NCBI GenBank assembly: GCA_025526915.1
Contig: JAHLKH010000030.1
Location: 1-64,000 of the forward strand
DNA from: Entophlyctis helioformis
Taxonomy: Eukaryota > Chytridiomycota > Chytridiomycetes > Chytridiales > Chytriomycetaceae
Length of the DNA: 64,000 nt
Direction of reading: 5' to 3'
Part shown: in pieces, positions 1 to 44,669 of the stretch
Position numbering within the stretch: position 1 is the stretch's first letter
Layout of the letters: each line of letters starts with the position of its first letter
The notes under the pieces: generated by a model
Seen by the model: the letters and a program-made list of their open reading frames with translations, nothing else
Told to the model about the DNA's origin: nothing
The model's database searches: none
Made by a program: the position numbers and the translations under genes

Positions 1-68
1 TGGCCGCCATGCTGCTTGATCGCCTGCTGATTGCACTGGATGGCATGGCATGACATGGCATTCCACAG

Positions 69-890
69 AAGGTCAAGGCCAAGCGGTTCACCAAGCGCAG
101 CAACAGCATGTCAATTCGCGGAAACGCTCTTGAGGGCATCATGAATCTGGCAGGCTCGACCACTGGAGAGCGCGCATCTGCTGCGTCTCAAGGCCGCTGT
201 GACAGCCAACAGAGAAGGACATTCCCGTTGTGTGGGCATTTGGCATCGACTTTACAGGCCAAGGTGGTCGGCACGCTGTGTTTGAGAGTTTCTCATCAGG
301 CATCTGCGGTCGTCTGGATATGCCTATGTGCGTCTGATGCCACGCTGTCCATCCATCCGTCCATCTGTGCACCAACTGACCCACACACACACACACAGAT
401 CTACCGCTGCAACGAGAACCTGACCAGCCAGATGTGCCCGCAGTGCAAGCAGCGGATCCCATATAAGAACCGCACCAACCTGCGACGCTACGAGTGCATA
501 CCATGCACGACCGTCTACCACCGCGATGTGCTTGGAGCCACCAACATCGGGATGGTCGCCCTGTGGCATCTGCTCTTTGGACACCGGCCGCTCTACTTGA
601 CGCACACCAAAGCCGACAGCAATCCAGCCACGACAGAGTACCTTGCAGACATCGAGGCAATGCATCTATTCATCCAGGATGTGCACGAAATGCTCCGCCT
701 GTTGTCCCACAGCCTCAAACGCGGAAACACTTCAAGTCGCATGTGGCCTCATGGGACCAGATCAGCCTGCCGTCCTGTGGCGTTCAAGACACGGTCCATC
801 CGTCGTCCAGCAGCGACCACATGCAGACAGCCTGCCCTCAAGTCACTTGACCTGCATCCACACAGTGACTTGTTTGACTACCAACTTTGA
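69..890 (+). pseudogene. Fanzor (TnpB-like RuvC nuclease), 3' part, copy 1
   Basis: This is the C-terminal part of a Fanzor RNA-guided nuclease whose 5' part lies outside the window. Bases 1-68 are the end of an intron (acceptor CCACAG); the exon then matches the second copy at 36.9-37.7 kb. An intron runs from about 324 to the CACAG before 400. The last exon carries the RuvC-II region (NENLTSQMCPQC), a CPQC...YECIPC zinc ribbon and RuvC-III (HRDVLGATNI). Against copy 2 it lacks single bases near 205, 288 and 679, which break the frame, so as assembled it is a decayed or mis-sequenced copy. The stop is TGA at 888-890. Family identity is clear from the RuvC/zinc ribbon order; activity is doubtful. 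Confidence 0.8.
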
Positions 891-1095
891 ATCGGGGGCA
901 CCTCCCGATCGACCTAACGGGTCACTTTTTCTAACGATAAAGGTGAGACCCTCGTTGGATGTGCCTCGCCCGCTGTCGTCGCATGCTCGTTGCTGACTCG
1001 AACCTTCCATCGTGTGATATGCTTGCTTCATTCGACGCCTCTTGCGACGAATTTAATTGCAAAATCCTTGGTAATTGTATCTTTATCGGGCCCAA
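891..1095 (+). ncRNA. Candidate Fanzor guide RNA scaffold / element right end, copy 1
   Basis: About 205 bp directly after the Fanzor stop are nearly identical to the segment after the stop of copy 2 (36694-36899, minus strand), although they are not coding. The segment starts with an inverted repeat (ATCGGGG, loop CAC, CTCCCGAT) and similarity ends sharply at TTTATCGGGCCCAA. In characterised Fanzor and TnpB elements the guide RNA overlaps the 3' end of the element and its guide is read from the flank beyond that end, so this is the expected place. Calling it an RNA is inference; conservation and the common endpoint are seen. Confidence 0.5.
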
Positions 1096-2199
1096 TAAAG
1101 GAAACGCGTTGGAAGTGGCCGGCCTAGTGGTAGCCATCGTCATCGTCCTGCTCGACAAAGGCGCCCCACTTGGAGGCTGCTGCTGCTGCAGTCGTGCGTT
1201 GATCGCCTGCGTCTTGGGCTGCAATCGCTGCTGGTGTGCACGCCGTGTCTCGGCTGGCGTCGCCCACTCCGGGCTGTGCCGTGCTGCCAGTGTTTCCCGG
1301 TGCGCTGCTGGTGCATCTGGATACACTCGGCCATCCTGATGCTCCTGGCCGGCATGGCGCTTTGGCTGTCGCAGCTGCGTGGCATGTGCGTTGCTGTGCC
1401 GCGTTGCTCGCTTGGCTGGCTGGCGGCCGGTCGCTCTGCGGGACGAGGATGCGTCTGGGATCACCCACGAGACGTGCTGCTCGATCTCGCACGGGTCGTC
1501 GCTGCCATGTGCGTCTGCCTCGCCAGCGCGGCTGTCGTCCTGCTCCTCGGGCTCGACAAACAGGCTCCAGTCTGTCCGGGGATGCCGTGGTGCTGGCTGT
1601 GCGTGGCTCGCCGGCTGCTGGAGCGATCGAGCCTTGGAGAAGATGGGGGCGCGATGGCCAGGCGGCAGCGGAGGCTGGATGTCTGCGTCCGCTGTTTGTG
1701 CTGCTTGAGATGCCTCTGATGCCTGTGGTGCCTCAGCTGCTTGTGCTGCAGCCGCACTCACGGCCGTGTGGATCAGGACGGCCGCGGCCTGGTCGCGCTC
1801 GGCAGCCTGCATGGAGATCTGCTGCACGGCGGCTCTGCACTCTGCGGCGCTGTGCGACTCGAACAGGACCTGCCGCGCACGGGACGGTGAGTTGCAGTGC
1901 ACACACGCGGGTAAGGCGAGTAAGGCGAGTAAGGCGAGTAAGGCGAGTAAGGCGGGCGGGACCCACGCGCATGAGCGACTGCGTCTGGTTGCAGACCCGG
2001 CAAGTCCACTTGGCCGACTTCTTGGCCTGCAGCAGGGGGCGGGCGTAAGTGTGCGTGTGTGTGAGCGTGGGCTTGTTGGCGGGCTTGTAGGCTGGATGGC
2101 TTATAGGCAGGCAGGCAGCACACCACAGCAGCGGGCACCGACCTGCTGCACCTGCGGCAAGCGGCACTGGCAGCAGCGGACAGCCACAAAGCCCGGCAT
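931..2199 (-). CDS. MRNIP-like protein (MRN complex-interacting protein family)
   Basis: Three exons: 2143-2199, 1967-2026 and 931-1869. Exon 1 encodes MPGFVAVRCCQCRLPQVQQ and exon 2 AKKSAKWTCRVCNQTQSLMR, together the N-terminal CxxC...CxxC zinc motif and the KKSxKWTC block of animal MRNIP/UPF0544 proteins, which bind the MRE11-RAD50-NBS1 complex. Exon 3 has the following AECRxxVQ helix and a WSLFVEPEEQ stretch resembling the second conserved short block, then low-complexity Q/A/R-rich sequence. The last ~55 codons (below about 1095) are read from Fanzor right-end DNA, so the native C-terminus was replaced when the element landed here. Intron 2 holds a 9-bp tandem repeat. Confidence 0.75.
1911..1954. 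repeat. 9-bp tandem repeat, about 5 units
   Basis: Unit GTAAGGCGA repeated about five times inside intron 2 of the MRNIP-like gene. A simple minisatellite; no function visible. Confidence 0.85.
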
Positions 2200-3067
2200 G
2201 CGCGACGTTCGGACAAGATTGGGCGACGCTGCGCTGCGGCTCTTGAACGGCCTGTGTGCGTGTGTCTATGTAAGTGTGTGGGTCTGCGTCTATGTCTGCG
2301 AGCGATCGCTGCCCAAGGCCACGATGCCCACAGCCAAGCGAACCCACGAGCCTGAAACACAAGTGTTGCTCTTACCCAAACGCAGCGAAAGTGTAAGTGC
2401 AAAGTCGCTGGTGATGCTACAGACGCACAGACGCACAGCCGCACAGACAGACACACACATGGACAGCCGCTGCCAACGGAGGCACGCACGCAAGGCAGGC
2501 AGCCGTGCGACACTCGCCTTTCCCGCAGACGCCTGCAAGTGTCCGCCGTGCCGTGCCGAGCAGCCAGCCATCAGCCAGCCAGCCAGCAGCCAGCCAGCCA
2601 GCAGCGGCTGTTCCAGAATGACGTCGCCGCCGTTTCGGCCTGGTGACGACACCATCAACCACCACCAGCACCAGCCAGCCAGCCAGCCAGCCATCAACGT
2701 GCGTACTGACCGGCCCGCTCTTTGCTCTGCCGCCTTTCTGCTGCTCTTTCCCGCATTCCTGTCTTCTCGACGCCTGCTCGACGCCTGCTCCTGGACATCT
2801 CGGCCCTTGCCTCGGTACGTCGGCTCGCATGCCCTTGCGCTTGTTGCCTGCCTGCTTGCTTGGCTGCCCGCACATGCGGCTGCTGCCCTGCAACTGCCCT
2901 GGCGGCGGCCCCCGCCTCTCCCGATCGGCATGCTGACATTCCACCCTTGCATGCCTTTCCATCCGACTTGCCTTCCGACTCTGGTCTCGCTCGCAGCCAC
3001 CACTCAATCTCGACACACAACCTGACAGAATGTCTTCCCTTCCCCTGCAGACCAGCGCCAGCACCCG
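2200..3067. other. Divergent promoter region, no gene seen
   Basis: Spacer between the divergent MRNIP-like (-) and CHY/RING (+) genes. It contains CA-rich runs around 2440-2460, CCAG-type tetranucleotide tracts near 2570-2605 and 2672-2692, and pyrimidine-rich stretches with short spurious ORFs on both strands. I see no RNA gene or conserved coding sequence. Confidence 0.5.
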
Positions 3068-5123
3068 ATGGATCAGTCGGTCGCTTCATCGTCCCACTCC
3101 CAGTCCCAGTCGCGCGGACAGCAGGCCGTCTCGCAGAGCCACAACCAAAACCGGATGGCTTTTGAGCGCTTCACGGACGGCCAGGCCCCGCTTCTTGAGG
3201 AAGAGGGCGACGAGGACGTGATGGACGTTGACGGCGAATATGACGACGCCTCGGAAGGCAGCGAGGACTACGAGGACTACGACGACGACGAGGACGACGA
3301 CGGTTTTGAGGAAGAGGAGTGCGATCACAACCATAACCACAACCACCAGCACAACCACCAGCACCACGATCATGCCCACGCACATGGCCACACTCATGCT
3401 CACGACCATGGGCACCAGCACGGCCAGCAGCAGATGCAGCAGATGCAGCAGACCCAACCCCCTGCCGATCCGCAAGAGGCCATCGTGCAGAGCCAGGCCG
3501 AGCTTCGCAAGCGCATCATGGTCATCCAGCAGAACGCGCTCCTGACTCCTGCTGAAAAGGCGCGGCAGATCCAGGTAGGTTCTCTTGCATCCTCGTTCGT
3601 TTGTTAGTCCCGCCTCATGTCTCGCGTCTCTCTCTCTGACATCGACGGTGTTATTGTCCGTCGGCGATTTTCTGCGTGTTCAGGACCTCATGTCGAGCGG
3701 CTGGACAACGAAGCAAAAGCTGCAGACGAACCGCTCGGCGCTCGCGTCAAACAAGTTGGAGGACAGAGTGGACAATGCCAACATGCTCTCTGAAGAAGAC
3801 ATGGCTCCATCTTGGCATGTACGTTTGATCATCCTCATCCTCTCTTGTCTTTTCTGCATGCATGATACTGACGAGCCCTTCTGCGTGTCGTTTGCCGCCC
3901 AACAGAACCGCGAGGCTGGCATTCTCGGTTGCAAGCACTACCAGCGTGCTGCCAAGCTCCAGGGACACTGCTGTGGCCGCTGGTTTACCTGCCGCTTCTG
4001 CCACGACGAGGTTTCTGACCATAACATTGTCCGGTAAGCCGCCCGCTCGCGTTGCTCTGCTTCACGCCTGTTCTTCTGCGACGCGTCTCGGGGGTTTTCT
4101 GTTCTGCCTTGTCCGACGCGTCGCGAGATTGCCTAAATATGCCCAAATCGAGAAACGCGCATCTAATCAACGTCCCATCTTTTCGGATCACCTCATGGAT
4201 CTCGGAACTTTCTTGCCGCGTGCCTCATCGCGTCTCAACTCCACCGCGCGGTCCATGCGTTGCCTGTGTGCAGCAACCTCACCACAACCATGATGTGCAT
4301 GTTCTGCAACACCGTCCAGCCCGCTGGCCAGGTCTGCGCAAACGCGTCCTGCGGCAAAAAGGTTGCGCGTTACTACTGCGGCGAGTGCAAGCTCTGGGAT
4401 GACGACCACAAGAAGAACATCTACCACTGCAACGACTGTGGCATCTGCCGCATCGGCAAGGGGCTTGGCCAGGACTACTTCCACTGCAAAAGTGCAACGT
4501 GTGCATGGCCATCAGTCTGCAGGGGCCGCCACAAGTGCATCGAGCGCAACCTCGAGTCCGACTGCCCCATCTGCGGCGAGTACATGTTTACGTCGACCAC
4601 CACCGTCATCTTCATGCCCTGCGGCCACTGCATCCACTACAAGTGCCACCAAGAGTACATCCAGACGTCGTACCAGTGCCCGACCTGCTTCAAGTCGCTG
4701 GCCAACATGACCGAGTACTTCCAGCGCATCGATGCCATGCTCGCCCAGCACGAGATGCCGCCCGAGTACAGCAACACCCACAGCCACGTCTACTGCAACG
4801 ATTGCGAAAAGAAATCCAACGCCAAGTTCCACTTCCTCTACCACAAGTGCGGCCACTGCTCGGGCTACAACACCAAGGTGCTCCACACGTTTGAAATCAA
4901 GCCGGACGGAAAGCCAGTCATCACAAACTCGCCCGCCCTGCTCAATGCCGCTCTGCCGTCTGAACCGCCCATGCCGTACGGAGCTGGCTCTCCGTCCATC
5001 GGCCTGCTCGAGTTCCCGGCAGATGCCGCGACACGCTCCAGAAGCCTCAGCGGATCGTCCAACACTCTCGGCGGCCGCACTCGCCGTCCCTCTGCTGCCG
5101 GTGCGGCCTCCATGGACGAGTAA
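3068..5123 (+). CDS. CHY zinc-finger / RING-type E3 ubiquitin ligase, RCHY1 (Pirh2)-like
   Basis: Four exons: 3068-3574, 3684-3818, 3906-4033, 4274-5123. After an acidic stretch and an unusually His-rich region (HNHNHNHQHNHQHHDHAHAH, about residues 85-115) comes the CHY zinc finger (GCKHYQR...CCGRWFTCRFCHDE...DHNIVR), the CTCHY cysteine/histidine array, then a RING-H2 (CPICGEYM...CGHCIHYKCHQEYI...CPTC) and a C-terminal rubredoxin-like CNDCEKK...HKCGHC. The order matches RCHY1, which ubiquitinates substrates such as p53 in animals. Within the CTCHY part (4489-4525) the assembled frame gives CKSATCAWPSVCRGR where the family has CxxCxxCxxxxLxxR; a missing A and an extra G restore it. Start chosen as the first ATG ahead of the acidic block. 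Confidence 0.88.
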
Positions 5124-24748: not shown

Positions 24749-26835
<2,087 letters not shown>

Positions 26836-26895
26836 GGTATGAGAACCGGGCAGAATCTTGGCGAGTGTTGAAGATCTTGCTTGGTAACCTTCAAC

Positions 26896-36414: not shown

Positions 36415-36486
36415 TCTTCAGTAGTATAGTGGCTAGTATCTCCGCCTGTCACGCGGAAGACCGGGGTTCGATTCCCCGCTGAAGAG
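36415..36486 (+). tRNA. tRNA-Asp (GTC)
   Basis: Acceptor arms TCTTCAG/CTGAAGA pair perfectly; D-arm AGTATAGTGGCTAGTAT, anticodon loop CTGTCAC with anticodon GTC, T-arm GGGGTTCGATTCCCC. No intron. A T5 run follows (TTTTT near 36490), a pol III terminator. Confidence 0.95.
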
Positions 36487-36579
36487 CATCTTTTTGTCGT
36501 TTTGCACATCCTTGGACACAAGGACTGCTTTCTTGCCCCAACTGACGCTTCATTTTTGGCAGCCGTTACGGCATCTACG

Positions 36580-36693
36580 TCAGGGAATCACACAACTGAG
36601 GGATCTACGCACGGCCTTGAGCTCGAAGGGGGACGGCATCTCGTGTCTTTGGAATATCGCCAACTTGGATTTTTCCAGTGCATCGAATCGAAC
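36580..36693 (+). repeat. Dispersed repeat fragment (THGL repeat), copy 2
   Basis: Between tRNA-Asp and the Fanzor right end lies sequence like the 3' part of the retroposed insert at 52836-52915; both read TEGSTHGL.LE...HLVS when translated. It ends where the Fanzor-conserved DNA begins at 36694, so the Fanzor element seems to have landed in or beside it. Confidence 0.6.
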
Positions 36694-36899
36694 TTGGGCC
36701 CGATAAAGATACAATTACCAAGGATTTTGGAATACAATTCGTCGCAAGAGGCGTCGAATAGATGCCCGCGTATCACACGATGGAAGGTTCGAGTCAGCAA
36801 CGAGCATGCGACGACAGGCGGGCGAGGCACATCCAACAAGGGTCTTACCTTTATCGTTAGAAAAAGTGACCCGTTAGGTCGATCGGGAGGTGCCCCGAT
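36694..36899 (-). ncRNA. Candidate Fanzor guide RNA scaffold / element right end, copy 2
   Basis: Reverse complement of 891-1095 with a few substitutions, lying straight after the Fanzor stop codon. The 5' stem (ATCGGGG CAC CTCCCGAT) and the terminal TTTATCGGGCCCAA are kept. Beyond this point (lower coordinates) the two loci share nothing. Position and conservation fit the guide RNA of Fanzor/TnpB elements; transcription is not shown by sequence. Confidence 0.5.
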
Positions 36900-39800
36900 T
36901 CAAAGTTGGTAGTCAAACAAGTCACTGTGTGGAATGAGTGACAGGTGACTTGAGGGCAGGCTGTCTGCGTGTTGGTCGCTGCTGGACGACGGATGGACCG
37001 TGTCTTGAACGCCACAGGACGGCAGGCTGATCTGGTCCCATGAGGCCACATGCGACTTGAAGTGTTTCCGCGTTTGAGGCTGTGGGACAACAGGCGGAGC
37101 ATCTCGTGCACGATCCTGGATGAATAGATGCATTGCCTCGATGTCTGCAAGGTACTCTGTCGTGGCTGGATTGCTGTCGGCTTTGGTGTGCGTCAAGTAG
37201 AGCGGCCGGTGTCCAAAGAGCAGATGCCACAGTGCAACCATCCCGATGTTGGTGGCTCCAAGCACATCGCGGTGGTAGACAGTCTTGCATGGTATGCACT
37301 CGTAGCGTCGCAGGTTGGTGCGGTTCTCGTATGGGATCCGTTGCTTGCACTGCGGGCACATCTGGCTGGTCAGGTTCTCGTTGCAGCGGTAGATCTGTGT
37401 GTGTGTGTGTGTGCATGATCGTGTGTCAGTTGGTGTACAGATGGATGGATGGATGGATGGATGGCATATCAGACGCACATAGGCATATCCAGATGACCGC
37501 AGATGCCTGATGAGAAACTTCTCAAACACAGCGTGCCGGCCACCTTGGCCTGTAAAGTCGATGCCAAATGCCCAGACAACGGGAATGTCCTTCTCTGTTG
37601 GCTTGTCACAGCGGCCTTGAGACGCAGCAGATGCGCGCTTGCCAGTGGTCGATCCTGCCAGCTTCATGATGCCCTCAAGAGCGTTTCCGCGAATTGACAT
37701 GCTGTTGCTGCGCTTGGTGAACCGCTTGGCCTTGACCTTCTGTGGAATGCCATGTCATGCCATGCCATCCAGTGCAATCAGCAGGCGATCAAGCAGCATG
37801 GCGGCCGTGTCAATGGGCATCCAGAAACAGAGAAAACGTACCCGTGCATTCAGGAATGGCGTGCAGTACGCATGGCAGCGCAGATCCCAAAAGGCTCTCT
37901 CGCCAGGCTTGACGTTTGGATCGGCATGCTTTGCTGTCTTGAATGCAATGGCCGCCTGGATGTCAGCAGCCTTGGCAAGTCGGTCAGCAAACCTGGCGCA
38001 AGAGGCAGGCACTGTGAGTTGATCTGGTCAAGAGTGCACGTGGCAGAGTCATTGCATGCATACCACCGCTGAAGGTCACGCTCAGCTTGAAACATGCCAG
38101 AGGAGAGCACGTAGTTGGACTCGAGCGTATACGAAAAGTCCCTGAGATCAACCAAGATGCTGGACGCGCCATACAGGTACCGCTGGCCCCAATCAAAGCT
38201 GACAACGCGAACAGTCTGGTAGCCTTGGTCAGTGAACAGATTGTTGGCGTTGATGATGTTGCGCAGTCGCTGTGAGGCGTAAAAGTTGCGCTTGCCCTGT
38301 CATGCCATGGCATGAGTGAGGAATGTGCAATGCATGTGCACCAATGCGCGAGGTTGGCATGCAAGTGGCTTACAGGATTGGGCGTGTATGGCTTGGCGGC
38401 TGATGGGTCGGCTGGATCGGCGGCTGTGGATGGCATGTCAGCCGGTGTGGACAACAAGTGTGCGTCTGGATTGGCACAGCAACTCACATTCGCCATTAAT
38501 GTAATCGGGCTCGCCATCAGCCTCGTCAACAAGCCACGGCTGCTCGCCTGAAGACGCTGCGTTGGGATCTGCAGATCAAGGTGGCAGTCAGAATCCATGT
38601 GTGCACCATCGCATTCAAGCACGCCACATACTGCGAGGTGACTCTGGACGGTTTGTGCGGCAGTCCAGAGCCAGCTGGTAGATGCTGTATCCATCCGTCA
38701 TGATGCTGCCAAGTAGGATCGCCTTGGCTGGTCTTGCTGGACGCACAGCATCAATCGCAGCCTTGATATGCTTCTCGCGCTCCTTGCCATCCAGACCCTG
38801 CTCATCGGCCTCTTGCGTCGCCTTGGCTGTTGCCTTGGCAACCGCGTCCATCTCATCTTTGGCTTCTGAAGGTGTCTGGAAGCGACCTTTCTTGGGGCGG
38901 AGACCTGGGAGAAGGATGTCAAAGATGCAAACCTCGCGACTTGCGCTGAATGCGTCTTGGATATCCTTGTTGGATGACGCAAGAGCTGACTTGGCATCTT
39001 TGTAGCCTTGGAGAAAAGTGCAGAGTCAGCATAAATTGTGTACACATGGCATATACAGGCAGTGCGACCAACCAAGTGCAGCCAGAAGCTGTAGTCTCAA
39101 TGCCTGCAAAGCAGGATCCTGATTGCCACGGGTGCGCTCATCCTTTGTCCTCATCACCGCCCAAAAGAGGGTGGTCTCAGTGATGAGGACAAACGGATCA
39201 CGGCCTGCAGGCTGCGGACACAACTTGAGGGATGAGCCTGCAAGATCACACAACTGCTTGAACTTGCCGGCCTCTGACAGCGACTTGTTGCGCACGACCG
39301 TCGTGAGCCTGTGCAGTGCTTGTGGGATCTCGACAATGCGTCTGTCTTGTCTGGTTGACAGTGGCGTGCCAGACATGGCATCCCCGGTGGCTGTATCCAT
39401 TGCCTTGGCAAATTCCGCTGCCTTGTCAGCAGATATACCAGGAATCAGTCGGTGGATTGCCCAGTCAATGAGCATCGACTGGTGGGTCATGAAGTGCACA
39501 GCAAGCATGCCACAGATGCCCCGTGCCAGATTTTTGTAGATGTCGTTCCGAGCAGCTGTACACAAACTGTCATCAAGCCTGCCAGGCAAAACGGCATGCA
39601 TCATGCTTGCGTCCATGTGCACAATGGCTGACAGCAATGAGCCGGCCTGCGTCGCGTCCATCTTTGCTGCCCGCGCCACACCAGCCCGCATCTTGGTCAT
39701 GCTGTCCCGGATCATCTGCTGCGTCCATTCGCGGTTGATGATCATCTGCATGACCGTCACAATCCACGAGTGGGCAACATGCTTTGTTGCCCGCGGCATG

Positions 39801-41117
39801 ACCAACTCCTGACCGGTGAGAATGTAGCCCAGGTATCGCAGAAGCATCGTGACGGCTCCCTCGCCACTAGAGGTGCTGTTTGTGAGCACCTTGAGCAGAT
39901 CATTTGCCGATGGTACTGCCCGTTGTAGTGGTGGCTCGATGGCTGGTGGTTGGGCATCGGTGCTGCTGGATGCGGCGGCTACTGCTGCTGGTGCTGCTGT
40001 TGCTACTGCTGGTGCTGTGTTGTCGGTGAAGGTGCAGATCTTGACCATTGTGCCCACCTCAAGTCTCACCAAGTCGCCATAGTGAGCAATGTCGGTGTTG
40101 CTGCAGAGCGGGCCCTTGCCGTACATGCGCCGGGCATTAACTGGCCATCTGAGGACGCATCCAGCGGCGTAGAGCCACGCGCTCTCGTCCTTGAAGTGAT
40201 CAGGATCAATATACACATATTCCATCTCACCATTCCTCCTGGCCTCCATGACGCAGAACTTGAGTGGCAGCGGTGCATATGGGTCGAGTGCGACGAGCTC
40301 TTCGACGATGGCGCCGATCATAGTGATGCATGCACGCCGCACGTCGGCCGTGTATCGGTACACGCCGTTGAAGATGTTTCTGAGACCGAACCGCGGGTCT
40401 GTGTTGCCGGCGCCGTCTTGGCCTGGCGTCCAAAATACTTTGCAAGCATTGGATCTCCAGAGAGCATTTCCTGTATGTAGCACAAGTCAACATACACAAA
40501 GCCAGACATGCAGAGCGACATGGCAATCCAAACTCATACCTCCATTTTGACGATCTGCTCAGGGCAATCGTATGTGCTCTCCACTGGCCTTGCCTCATTG
40601 CCATGGATGGCAGCAGCAGCTGTCATGACTGGCAATGCCATCATGCGGTGGATCTTTTCAAGCATCTGCTCTATCGCCGATCTTTCACCACGCTCATATC
40701 TGTCAAAGAATGCACCGGTCAGCACACACATCAAGGCACATGCCATGCCATATGCCACTTACGCCCGTGTCTCGTCCTCAGATGGAGCCTGGCGGGCTTG
40801 CCTGCTCGCATCCTTCTTGTGCTCCTGGATGAACTTCTTGGTCTTGGCCTTCTCAGCTTGCTCAGCTCGCTCCTTATCACGCTCAGCCTGCATGGCCGGT
40901 GTGACCAGGTATGGATCCTGCCGTGGTTGAATGCAATGTTAGGCATGCATCTTGAATGTGCACAAGATGCTCGCAATCACAAGCCTGCAGTTCAACTCAC
41001 AGTCGTCCTTGTGTCTTGAAGCACACCAATGTGAAAGACCTTGTCGCAATCTGTGCCTCTATCATCTGCAGCTCGAGGTGGCAGCAGCATCTTGCATGGT
41101 TTTGGTGGCTTGACGGC
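36900..41117 (-). CDS. Fanzor RNA-guided DNA nuclease (TnpB-like), copy 2
   Basis: Eukaryotic TnpB relative. Exons by eye: 41001-41117, 40763-40917, 40540-40699, 39073-40470, 38642-39006, 38488-38568, 38374-38423, 37842-38296, 37479-37739, 36900-37394. N-terminal half is helical and unrecognised (IFNGVYRYTADVRRACITMI...). Then the Fanzor core: ILLGSIMTDGYSIYQLALD, RuvC-I VVSFDWGQRYLYGAS (Asp codon 38192-38194), a bridge with KRFTKRSNSMSIRG, RuvC-II NENLTSQMCPQC (Glu 37377-37379), zinc ribbon CPQC/YECIPC, RuvC-III HRDVLGATNI (Asp 37266-37268). All three catalytic acids are present. Single-base breaks near 40430 and 38005 resemble the errors in neighbouring host genes. Possibly one transcript with the XPG-like frame upstream. 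Confidence 0.85.
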
Positions 41118-41196
41118 CTGTTGAGTGGAAGGATAAGCAATCGCAGCAAGCCGTCACATGCAAACAGAGCCAGCAAATGCAAAGACGCACCGGTAC

Positions 41197-43454
41197 TCAA
41201 TTGATAATCGACTGCAGCATCTGCTTTGCTTGGTCATAACACTCACCAAATTCTGATGCTCGGAAATCAGCATGCCTGACATCCGTTGGGTTTGTCAGGG
41301 CATTGAGCGTCTTTATGGCCGTTTCGCGAATATCGGCAACAGCTTCTGGGGTCGCGATCCGTGTGCTCCTTCTGAGCGGCTGCTTTGTCTTTTTACCCTT
41401 GACTGTCACACAAATGCCATGATCAGTGGTGAATACACAATGCCACACTGTGTCAACCCGTGCAGAGCGAACCTGGCGTTTTTAGACGCCTGAAAGATGC
41501 GCATTTCAAGCCTGGATACTTCTTGAGCCGCTCATTCAGTCTTGCTATCACATTCTGCTCGCCAGTAATGGATCAAGCCGGCAGCATTGAAGATCAGCAA
41601 CAGCATGCAGTGGACAGCCAAGACACCATCCAAGCCTCGCAAAACCCACCAATGCGTGATAAAGAATCTTGCCAGCCGGGCTGAGCTTTGCATATGCTTC
41701 TTTAGCGATACGCCAGTCATGCACAGCCTGCAGCAGCTGCTTGCTTGCATTCTCGCAGATATCAGCAAGGATGTCGCGGCCGTTGAGAATGTCATTGGCG
41801 AGGAGGTCTGCCGTGCATCGGAGAACGCAGCTAAACACGACACGGCAGCCATTGAGCATGACAAAAACGTCGTCCAGCCGCCTTGTGTTGACAATGTGCT
41901 TGGCGAGCACCATGACTTCATCCCGTGTAACGTGCCAAACCGCACCACTGGCATTGCCCTTCAGCTGCTGTGCCGTGTGGCTCAAGCAGCAGCCACTGCG
42001 GGCCGTGCATGCAGAGGCAGATCTGCCAGTGGCATCCATCAGAGTCAGTGCCATGAGAATCCTCCAGAGATCACAAGCACGCCTACTTTTTTCGAGCCGA
42101 GGCGGTCCTGTTGGCAGTCCTGCTGTTGCCATTGGATGGTGCATGCATTCATGTCAATGCCATGCTGTCCAAGTGCATCCAAAGCAAGACTTACAGCGGT
42201 ATCATTTGAGCAAAAACATCCCCATAACAACCATGGCTTTGGTCTGTGAACTCTCCAATATCCGCTCCAGTTTCGTCACGGTCGAGAAACACCGCAAAGG
42301 CATTGCTGAACGATTGAGCAAGAGGCTTGCCGCCGATCTTGTACATCTGCAACATAAATGAGGCCTTGAAGACGTCCACAAACATCCTGGCAAGGTCTGG
42401 GTCTTGCAGGCGTTGACAGAACTCTGCGACAGTGATCCCTGCCCATGTTGCCTCAAAACGAATGCATGCCATAATGCACTTTGCAGCCGTGACGATCCCT
42501 TGCAAGTCATCATTGCAGCATCACGATAAGTCAAGGTCGCAGCGCATGGCATCCAAAATTGCAAAGCAGGCAAGCCAACTTACCAATCTCATCACAATGA
42601 AAATAGTCATTTCTCGCTGCGGCTGCCGCCAACCGGCAGATGTCAAGAATCTCTGGCAAGTCAAAGGTGGCTGCAATAGATGCTACACCTGGGTGGTTGT
42701 ACGATCTCATCTGTGCAATCTGTCTGCCGCGCATTTGCAGCAGCAGGACAGGGCAATAGCCGGCACAATGAAAGATAAGGTCGGTATCACCACTGATGAC
42801 GACGACCGGCACATTGCTGTCAAGAAAGGCGCGTGAGCCATGGATTGGAGAGGCATGCAGAAGACCAACCAACCTTGCTTCGCGCACGCGGCATGCAATG
42901 CAAACATCCGCCTCGTTTTACAAAGGCACACAGACGACCCTTCCCCAAAGTATCCAAGAAGACCCCCAATGGCCCCACAGATTGCCGCCTTACGCTCGCA
43001 TGTCAATGGAAACGCCCACTGGAGTGACTGGATCTCGTCCCTGGAAGGGCACTCAGTCAGCACGGCATGCAAATCAACAGCAGCAAGTGGCATACTTTGT
43101 GAGCCTGTTGCCTTTCTGGTCTGCTTTTCGCTTGGCCACCATTGTCTGGATCGACAATGCTGCTTCCAAATTTACCCGTGCCCGCTCAGTGCGGACAGCC
43201 TTGATATTGGTGTTGAGAAGCGAGCCATCGACATGGAGCCGGACTGTGTGGAGCTTTCCAATCGATGCTGCGAGGCTGGCAATGAGCGGCTCGAGTGTCG
43301 GCGTCCAGTTTTCCTCTGGCTGTGCCAGCAGTATTGGTGCTGCTTTGTAGATATCGCCAGCAAAAAGACTGAGAACGTCCACATGCACAACACACTGGAT
43401 GGGCGGACGCTCTGTGTTGTGCTGCTGCAGTGTTTGAGGGGGCTGTACCACGAC
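41197..43454 (-). CDS. FEN1/XPG-superfamily nuclease in the Fanzor locus
   Basis: Multi-exon frame on the Fanzor strand. It carries the 5'-nuclease core in order: CVVHVDVLSLFAGD (first metal Asp), VRLHVDGSLLNTNIKAVRTE (DGS...K...R), EADVCIACRVREAS (the XPG-I E-A-D site, read after restoring one A in an AAAA run at about 42915), VPVVVISGDTDLIFHC (two Asp), RNDYFHCDEIGIVTAAK (the GxDY...GIG helix-turn-helix). Then a ~450-residue extension without known domains (FVDVFKASFMLQMYKIGGK; TRRLDDVFVMLNGCRVVFSC; LNERLKKYPGLKCASF). It ends at an in-frame TGA about 80 bp before the first Fanzor exon, so either two adjacent genes or one with an indel. The start exon is not resolved. Confidence 0.7.
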
Positions 43455-43855
43455 CTGAATTGCACCCGAGAGAGGGTTGTGGGATCAAGGGTTTTGCTAC
43501 CACCTGCTTTGTCGATGGGACAGTCGCGCCGACGACCCCATGCGTGTTGGGCGTGCTTGTGTGTTTGTTGTTGCGTGTTGTTGTGTGTCGTGGCAAGTCG
43601 CGATCTGGTGTTTGTTTGCATTGGCATGCTCTGATTGTTTGGCGGCAATGCATGGAGCACTGGTCTGTGTGGTGGAATGGCATGCTCCTCAGAGAGAGAG
43701 AGAGAGCGTTGCACATGACTATGCATTCGCCCCTCTTTATTCATGGAGGACACACACGCACCGCCCAGCGAGACAGCAGGCGCTGCTGTCTGCACCACTG
43801 CCGTTGCTGTGCTCGCATCGCGCAGTGTCAGCACTTCTCAAGGGCTCTCTAGATC

Positions 43856-43968
43856 GACCAATCACAGCGACTCCACCAGGATTGACCAATCACAGCGATT
43901 CCACCAGGAGTTGACCAATCACAGCAATTCCACCAGAATTGACCAATCAGGAATATTCCACCAGGGGT
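43856..43968. repeat. Four tandem 28-bp repeats with CCAAT boxes
   Basis: Units begin at 43856, 43884, 43913 and 43941, each with GACCAATCA followed about 10 bp later by TCCACCAG. They lie just upstream of the XPG-like/Fanzor transcription unit, so they may be promoter elements, subterminal repeats of the element, or both. Confidence 0.8.
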
Positions 43969-43990
43969 AATGGTATGAGAACCGGGCCCG

Positions 43991-44669
43991 AACTTTGACC
44001 CAAAACAACAATTCAGGTGAGTGTGAACAGCGGCGAGGCAGCCGCTGGTGGTGAAGTCGCTGGTGCAGACCCTGTTGATGTGCAGCAAACAGCCTGCGCA
44101 TAACCTTCAAGAGGCACATCATAGCCCACCACAAAAGACTCCAAAAGATGGCCACCAAACCAGACGGGGCAGGAGGACGGTTGTCGGAGAGTCTCCGTGA
44201 CAGCACGTATGAGCGGGCGAGCAAGCGAGCAGGCAAAGGGCAGTTGGCACAATCCTGCCTGCTGCCTGCCTGCCTGCCTGCCTGCCTGCTCGCCAGCTGC
44301 CGTATGGCAGCACCATCGTTCGCATGATGGCTGTCACCCGACCTCTGCCGCAACCGTCCTCCCACCCCGTCTCAAAAGAAACACCCCCCAAAAGAGCCCA
44401 TTTGACCAAGTAAGGGAGCCCAAAGAGACAATGCACGAACTGCAGAGCCACAGAGCTGCTGATGCACCGGATGCTGTTCCATTGCCTTGTGTGTGTGTGC
44501 ATGTGCGTGCATGGGCTGACTGTTGCTTCTTGTGTTGCAGACGACCATGCGGCTGCTGCCTCCGCTGCTGCCTCTGCTGCCTTCCATCGTCGCTCTCGTT
44601 GAACATTGAGCGGCTTTGACTCATCCGTCTCCATCCTCTTGACGGACCTTGCTGCCGACCAGTGACAAC
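43991..44669. other. Intergenic, no gene supported
   Basis: Spacer between the Fanzor locus and the PABPN1-like gene. It has a CCTG run at 44255-44290. A plus-strand ATG at 44148 opens a short frame (MATKPDGAGGRLSESL...) that could be a first exon, but no partner exon was found. Confidence 0.4.

Follow-up and report, generated by a model that had tools for sequence, protein, structure and literature searches.

In a 64,000-nucleotide stretch of the chytrid Entophlyctis helioformis (contig JAHLKH010000030.1 of assembly GCA_025526915.1; contig C30 in our searches of the 29.57-Mb genome), hereafter the window, we identified a 7.3-kb transposon whose one recognisable gene pairs a FEN1/XPG-like nuclease region with a Fanzor nuclease. 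On balance we favor a DNA transposon family with inverted repeats and 8-bp target-site duplications, the gene of which most likely codes for a single FEN1/XPG plus Fanzor protein of ~1,780 residues; the repeats, duplications, copy numbers, linkage of the two halves, exon structure, conserved acids, and purifying selection on which this draws are directly observed. A first-pass annotation of the window had placed a Fanzor gene and a FEN1/XPG-family nuclease at 36694–43990, and the element ends located here by copy comparison fall within a few bases of that interval, at 36697 and 43988.

The window element is one member of an E. helioformis family bounded by inverted repeats of ~23 bp and flanked by 8-bp duplications. 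A pattern made from the 5′ repeat, GGTTCTCATACCATTACCCC, has 87 matches in the genome with at most two mismatches, and one made from the 3′ repeat, CTTGGTAATTGTATGAATATCGGGCC, has 164 with at most three, while the reversed control patterns have none; the family form of the 3′ repeat in gene sense is GGTAATTGTATGAATATCGGGCC. We compared 20 near copies with the window element: nine (L009 to L013, L015, L019, L026, and L028) align with it over its whole length, mainly as a single stretch, at 95.8 to 97.4% DNA identity, some also matching over a further short piece at the 5′ repeats, two (L018 and L021) cover its full span in several pieces, and nine are partial, with two (L023 and L024) consisting of the 5′ part only and seven otherwise incomplete, some at contig ends. 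Target-site duplications were sought at 31 end pairs: the window and fetched loci supplied 11, and small flank stretches the other 20 (among which the C35 and C436 flanks are identical). In 19/31 end pairs the two flanks have a word in common with a score of 7 or more, versus 2% of mismatched pairs, with lower scores at C22, C60, C67, C141, C198, L009, L010, L012, L018, L021, L026, and L028. Exact flank words of at least 7 bp were found 16 times, with a modal length of 8 bp (AGAAATTC, CAAACCGG, CAAAGCCG, TGCAGTTG, and GGTTCAAG) and others of 7 (four), 9 (three), 11 (three), and 12 bp (one), and some of the longer words may be extended by chance match to the element's own first bases.

Several other sequences belong with this family. 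A second copy lies at window positions 1–1092 on the plus strand, where it is cut by the contig start and retains exons 18 and 19, the 3′ untranslated region, and the 3′ repeat. Short derivatives of 1.0 to 2.2 kb with both repeats and a common flank word (C35:164492-165475, C436:7865-8911, and C199:20585-22748) resemble non-autonomous or 'ghost' elements. An array of ~27-bp repeats (CCTGGTGGAATCGCTGTGATTGGTCAA-like) at window positions 43852–43965, just inside the 5′ repeat, varies in number from copy to copy, and two loci, L074 and L075 (on C102 and C66), are the 5′ ends of a 9-kb subfamily with ~1.4 kb extra ahead of the XPG exons, a region of just ~0.4 kb in the 7.3-kb form; the extra sequence holds an open stretch with an AT-hook-like RGRGRLRG.

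The gene comprises 19 exons and 18 GT-AG introns of 55 to 102 bp on the minus strand, from 43541 to 36900 (Table 1). We built this model by hand from copy comparison, picking introns that keep the frame of one sister copy, L011, open, and then checking them across copies: GT-AG is kept at all introns held in 17 aligned copies (five of them partial), except for acceptor 13 in L015 and L021. L011 is open throughout, with 5,334 coding bases that would yield a protein of 1,777 residues. Among deposited gene models, P0001 agrees with this structure over exons 1 to 5 and P0010 at the exon 18/19 junction. Among eight copies translated only L011 is open, and the other seven, window copy included, are broken, a point against the favored reading. 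The window copy itself is not intact: codons 14 and 18 of exon 1 are stops, exons 2 and 12 each show a one-base length difference relative to most sister copies, and there is a TGA at 41199–41197. The last of these had been singled out for resequencing in the first-pass annotation, and it is real in the window copy; L011 has a sense codon there.

The C-terminal half can be assigned firmly, on motif and profile matches, to Fanzor, with a TnpB/Cas12-type RuvC domain. The sequences FDWGQ, NENLTSQMC..C, YECIPC, and HRDVLGATN, which had been read as RuvC acids and a zinc ribbon, are all present on the minus strand at the far end of the gene. The C4 zinc ribbon family PF07282 matches the spliced L011 C-terminus with 39.3 bits (curated cutoff 26.3; E = 7.4e-10) and the window frame with E = 4.8e-9. 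L011 has the acid pattern D-E-D at D1433 (exon 16), E1619 directly ahead of the ribbon, and D1656 (exon 19), and with gaps of 188 and 5 it fits the published Fanzor/TnpB motif D-X(125,275)-[TS]-[TS]-X-X-C4-X(5,50)-RD (PMC3627910). In the Fanzor structures described in PMC11423790 the catalytic Glu lies in the loop before the ribbon, and the corresponding NENLTSQMC is present in L011, L029, and L031 (by alignment) and in L030, L032, and L033 (in exon 19). Upstream of these motifs, exon 12 perhaps leads into a part equivalent to the Fanzor REC/WED domains. The NCBIfam TnpB models are built on prokaryotic TnpB; guided_TnpB is matched by three of four members, at the ribbon end only (best E 5.2e-7), and the first member scores 19.4 bits against a whole-protein cutoff of 100 for guided_TnpB and 21.1 against 425 for IS200_TnpB. 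A profile search with the Fanzor half returned only E. helioformis proteins (10) among 8,000 scored candidates, and with no relative from another species among these the family is divergent. Searches of the PDB with both halves gave no convincing match; the C-terminal 107 residues returned eight matches at E 0.4 to 1.7, with an aminotransferase at the top and four RNA-guided or TnpB-like nucleases among them.

The first ~385 residues are likely a homologue of the FEN1/XPG-type nucleases. The motifs that the first-pass annotation had reported in the upstream same-strand frame (VDVLSLF, HVDGS, NEADVCIA, SGDTDL, RNDY, and EIGIVTAA) are where it had placed them, the last spanning the exon 3/4 junction. 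In L011 numbering, acids follow in FEN1 order at D56, D106, E193, D195, D216, D218, and D276, which we take to match individual FEN1 residues, and all seven are invariant across four subfamilies. With four more sequences added (eight in all, for exons 2 to 4 only), D195, D216, D218, and D276 are present in 8/8 and E193 in 7/8, with L080 having Lys at that position. L011, L033, and L032 start with MGV. Alignment of the eight-sequence profile to EXO1/XPG with hhalign scores 28.7, compared with 20.3 for the highest-scoring of 99 column shuffles, and the four-sequence profile scores 22.5 (best of 59 shuffles, 20.2) in an alignment that covers the EAD, DxD, and DY..G motifs.

We weighed these observations against the proposal that the region is some unrelated domain whose acidic motifs only look like those of an XPG nuclease, and several results weigh on that side. 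The hhalign probability is 33% for eight sequences, where the EAD motif is outside the aligned part, and 1.9% for four. Pfam XPG_I_2 gives E = 0.023 and 14.6 bits against a cutoff of 24.2, no better than unrelated weak matches of the same protein (DUF7742, 0.018; FAD_binding_4, 0.022), and other XPG families are unlisted; exon 1 alone matches DUF7742 with E = 0.0032, also under the cutoff, and the L032 XPG part has no Pfam match. A PDB profile search with the XPG half gave no match, and the AlphaFold model of P0001, with a pLDDT of 33, is unusable. A six-frame genome search with Pfam XPG_I_2 and XPG_I also missed the element, whose introns split the motifs. Nevertheless, the FEN1-order acids kept across subfamilies, the MGV start, and profile scores that beat all 59 and all 99 shuffles when aligned on the expected motifs make a look-alike domain unlikely in our judgment. 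A profile search with the XPG half returned only E. helioformis proteins (three) among 8,000 scored candidates. A scan of bacterial and archaeal genomes for FEN1-like reference sequences gave 89 pattern matches with none confirmed, and the full-length protein, compared with 5.8 billion proteins, had no match at E ≤ 0.001 among 7,999 scored candidates.

The pairing of the two halves goes beyond chance, being kept across subfamilies and at many loci. XPG exon 3 has 150 matching stretches in the genome, and dropping five that adjoin others leaves 145 places; there are 281 candidate places for Fanzor exon 19, of which 150 were scored and 131 were not. Looking 3 to 14 kb downstream on the same strand, we found a scored Fanzor exon for 83/145 XPG places (observed distances 5.4 to 13.0 kb), versus 0 at the corresponding distance upstream and 3 on the other strand, and an XPG exon lies upstream at 82/150 scored Fanzor places. 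For the partnerless places (62 XPG and 68 Fanzor), some of the partners are among the 131 unscored candidates, and others may fall at contig ends or be truly absent; at L033, for example, the partner is among the unscored candidates and the Fanzor exon is present in the L033 DNA. Typing of 77 exon 12 places found both neighbors at 43, only the Fanzor exon at 18, only the XPG exon at 14, and neither at two. The subfamily loci L030 to L033 have both halves, with XPG parts 61% (L033), 34% (L031), and 31% (L032) identical to that of L011. The idea that a Fanzor element merely happens to lie beside an XPG gene of the host is refuted by this linkage, has nothing found in its favor, and retains almost no credence: the halves share one repeat pair in copies spanning both ends, they co-occur in four further subfamily loci, and the host EXO1- and XPG-like genes are located elsewhere.

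Fanzor copies lacking the XPG part, which had been put forward as a sign of chance adjacency, were looked at in part. Set against the 82 scored Fanzor places with the XPG exon upstream, one subfamily copy, L029, is without it, and there may be a Fanzor-only minority among the 68 partnerless places. At L029 positions 1–3531 (gene sense) a 1,177-codon frame stands in place of the XPG half, upstream of the remaining element exons; by eye it looks like a Gypsy-type polyprotein.

Judging from the reading frame, the XPG-like and Fanzor halves are probably fused in a single protein. In L011, exons 4, 5, and 6 can be spliced in frame, and in L033 the frame also runs from exon 4 into exon 6, using identical splice sites. 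The exon 4-to-6 frame of L031 is open with a GC-AG intron 4, none having been found with the usual GT donors; in L032 the frame is not open through the homologous sites of exons 4, 5, and 6, though it is with other GT-AG combinations. Open joins are readily enumerated, however, with 34 combinations in L031, 27 in L032, and 8 in L033, so the exon 4-to-6 continuity is supporting rather than decisive. The first-pass annotation had described a gap of ~80 bp between the frames and suggested one protein of roughly 1,900 residues; the close spacing stands, although the gap is probably intron 5, and one protein is probable at the smaller size predicted from L011.

The alternative is that one transposon carries two tightly packed genes: the XPG-like one would stop at the TAG that follows exon 5, and the one containing Fanzor would begin within exon 6 or close to it. 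Two points weigh against fusion here: the deposited model P0001 ends at exon 5, between the halves, and, more mildly, the homologous L032 sites are closed. P0001 stops at the unspliced TAG, which is to say that the annotator saw a 397-residue XPG-like gene, and in the window and L033 exon 6 can be opened by an upstream in-frame ATG (MDATGRSASAC). In L031 and L032, by contrast, the exon 6 frame has no ATG ahead of the conserved part, and exons 5 and 6 are only 64 bp apart. The in-frame splicing in L011, L033, and L031 (with its GC donor) argues in the same direction, not strongly given how easily joins are enumerated. Overall we consider two separate genes improbable and prefer the fused protein.

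The XPG exons are under purifying selection, with ratios of nonsynonymous to synonymous divergence (dN/dS) of 0.24 to 0.39 in six pairs at dS of 0.76 to 2.6, several of the higher dS values being near saturation. RuvC exons 16 to 19 have dN/dS of 0.41 to 0.70 at dS of 0.14 to 0.23 (seven pairs), a weaker constraint, which weighs against the favored reading. The contrast in dS is seen within the same L011, L031, and L033 pairs, and the far lower values in the RuvC exons indicate that the 3′ half is younger or has been homogenised between subfamilies. We also compared L011 with L030 to L033, leaving out L029 because its 5′ half is missing. Intron similarity exceeds the average of the adjoining exons at 15/18 introns for L030, 16/17 plus one tie for L033, 14/18 for L031, and 15/18 for L032; within the near-identical family exon and intron divergence are about equal (1.95% and 1.72%). 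A tract of L011 exon 11 is nearly identical to that of L030 (98% over the exon) and lies between family-like introns. It looks as though exon sequence has been exchanged between subfamilies, possibly via spliced copies, with constraint on introns as a rival explanation of the intron-exon contrast.

As to how such an element might move, the simplest reading is that RNA-guided cutting, combined with end processing by the built-in 5′ nuclease, moves or maintains a Fanzor transposon, with or without a transposase in trans. The RNA guidance and nuclease activity of the fusion protein are predictions from its sequence. An RNA transcribed from the 3′ end of the element and on into flanking DNA would guide the Fanzor part to sites matching the flank, such as an emptied donor site, which it would cut. 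There the attached 5′ nuclease would trim a 5′ flap or the strand displaced by cutting, and repair would then copy the element back or ligate it in, with any DDE transposase that is required being supplied in trans. The candidate guide-RNA site is the conserved 3′ untranslated stretch, which in L011 folds only slightly better than shuffles (z = −1.95; 8/200 shuffles as good); with the whole 3′ half conserved, these features prove little. A splice-donor-like AAGGTRAG lies past the stop codon at window positions 36844–36852 on the minus strand, in 15/16 aligned copies. By eye, no target-adjacent motif (TAM) was evident in the flanks of the end pairs compared.

We also considered that the element is a conventional DDE transposon mobilised by an 8-bp-duplicating transposase acting in trans, such as KDZ, and that the Fanzor-XPG gene is its cargo, with the fusion having a side role, for example protecting or re-copying the element; we rate this joint account as a serious contender, a little short of even. 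hAT and KDZ transposons are DDE transposons with 8-bp duplications. Domain searches of the element's frames recognised no DDE transposase domain, KDZ transposase remnants are present in the genome (four matches on three contigs), and the short both-ended C35, C436, and C199 elements, with their matching flank words, are expected for movement in trans. Fanzor1 genes, moreover, occur in elements of several superfamilies according to the survey in PMC3627910. Against cargo, the KDZ remnants are few, with stops in three of the four matches, and no other element with the same ends was identified, no in-depth search having been made. A hAT search had no match in any control genome either and so says nothing about hAT absence. 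The most far-reaching reading would make the fusion protein the element's own mobility machine, in which guided RuvC cuts and ends prepared by the flap nuclease generate 8-bp duplications without a DDE transposase, and would add that exons are exchanged between subfamilies independently of introns, as via spliced copies; in this full form we regard it as quite unlikely.

Some features of the surroundings were also recorded. Window positions 26830–26847 on the minus strand match the element's 5′ repeat with two mismatches, distant from the element. A tRNA-Asp gene lies at 36415–36487 on the plus strand, 210 bp from the element's 3′ end; we do not claim a preference for tRNA-adjacent insertion, since a tRNA was called at just one of 25 other loci (L031), where it is inside the element. 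The 3′ flanks of L009, L019, L026, and L028 are 99.5 to 100% identical while their 5′ flanks differ, and the pairs L012/L021 and L023/L024 have 99.5 to 100% identical 5′ flanks, the opposite flanks differing for L012/L021. The common flanks look like transduction, but given this level of identity we take them as probable assembly chimeras or haplotypes.

Table 1. Features of the transposon copy in the window (strand is that of the gene; basis or remark in the last column)
Feature	Position	Strand	Basis or remark
Whole transposon copy	36697..43988	minus	7,292 bp; ends from copy comparison
Target-site duplication, 5′ copy AAAGTTCG	43989..43996	minus	first base differs from 3′ partner
5′ terminal inverted repeat GGCCCGGTTCTCATACCATTACC (gene sense)	43966..43988	minus	copy-end comparison
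Exon 1, XPG-like N-terminal region (VDVLSLF, HVDGS)	43096..43541	minus	frame broken here; P0001 has same exons 1-5
Exon 2, ENEADVCIA motif	42874..43040	minus	copy comparison; frame shifted in window copy
Exon 3, SGDTDL and RNDYF motifs	42584..42816	minus	copy comparison
Exon 4, GIVTAA and remainder of XPG-like region	42195..42498	minus	copy comparison
Exon 5, 36 bp	42087..42122	minus	P0001 final residues ARKK; TAG next in unspliced sequence
Intron 5, 64 bp	42086-42023	minus	between exons 5 and 6
Exon 6, linker region	41650..42022	minus	homologous in subfamilies L030-L033
Exon 7, no known domain	41554-41473	minus	copy comparison
Exon 8, no known domain; TGA 41199-41197 in window copy	41402-41191	minus	copy comparison
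Exon 9, no known domain	41117-41001	minus	copy comparison
Exon 10, no known domain	40917-40763	minus	copy comparison
Exon 11, no known domain	40699-40540	minus	copy comparison
Exon 12, large region of no assigned domain	39073..40470	minus	frame shifted in window copy
Exon 13, TDGYS ahead of RuvC	38632..39006	minus	copy comparison
Exon 14	38568-38488	minus	copy comparison
Exon 15	38423-38374	minus	copy comparison
Exon 16, RuvC-I aspartate (SFDWGQ)	38064..38296	minus	copy comparison and motif
Exon 17	37842..37992	minus	copy comparison
Exon 18, VVWAFGIDFTGQGG core strand region	37479..37739	minus	P0010 joins exon 18/19 homologues at same junction
Exon 19, catalytic Glu (NENLTS), C4 zinc ribbon, RuvC-III aspartate (HRDVLGATN), stop	36900..37394	minus	PF07282 and motif
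Conserved 3′ untranslated stretch, candidate guide-RNA site	36720..36899	minus	copy conservation
3′ terminal inverted repeat GGTAATTGTATCTTTATCGGGCC in window copy	36697..36719	minus	copy-end comparison
Target-site duplication, 3′ copy CAAGTTCG	36689..36696	minus	flank comparison

The N-terminal part of the predicted protein resembles the 5′ nucleases FEN1, EXO1, and XPG in having metal-binding acids in order and a Gly-rich stretch past the last Asp, and unlike them it scores under Pfam cutoffs, lies in a transposon, and is joined to Fanzor. The nuclease of AcademX transposons is XPG-like, and we know of no Fanzor part in Academ elements. AcademX is likewise a nuclease-encoding transposon lineage, and duplication lengths are given as 3 to 4 bp for AcademX and 9 to 10 bp for AcademH (PMC10045372). 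We rejected Academ membership for the E. helioformis element, as its modal exact duplication of 8 bp is unlike either, with the reservation that exact words of 9 to 12 bp also occur. Among Fanzor1 elements, SPu-1 of Spizellomyces punctatus, which encodes SpuFz1, is alike in being a chytrid transposon with inverted repeats and no transposase found between them, as the 2023 Nature paper states in its account of Spu-1 (PMC10432273), and in the RuvC D-E-D pattern with a Glu preceding the C4 zinc ribbon (PMC10432273, PMC3627910, PMC11423790). As described there, SPu-1 is ~2.1 kb long with a single 633-residue frame, 33-bp repeats, and putative TA duplications, whereas the E. helioformis element is 7.3 kb long, its gene has 18 introns and an XPG-like nuclease region at the N-terminus, and its duplications are 8 bp. 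The MCi-2 Fanzor1 elements of Mucor circinelloides similarly combine divergent 5′ parts with a nearly identical Fanzor-coding 3′ part, and they differ in being without recognisable inverted repeats, in having 11- to 12-bp duplications, and in carrying a partial Crypton gene in one subfamily; the MCi-2 section of that paper makes no mention of an XPG part (PMC3627910).

The first-pass annotation knew of no described pairing of Fanzor with a flap-endonuclease-type protein, and the open-licence PubMed Central literature, which omits most subscription papers and bioRxiv, agrees: among the matches listed, none describes by title or abstract a Fanzor with FEN1/XPG, and no paper was on topic by title for Academ with XPG. 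A Fanzor joined to a flap-type nuclease in a many-copy transposon is a combination that we have not found described. Fanzors are eukaryotic RNA-guided nucleases related to CRISPR Cas12 whose role in the transposons that carry them is an open question. A natural Fanzor-flap nuclease, present in many copies and under purifying selection, points to a step after the cut, such as strand trimming or the processing of ends or guide. The fusion gives a defined protein with which that step can be tested, and it could suggest a compact cut-and-resect tool.

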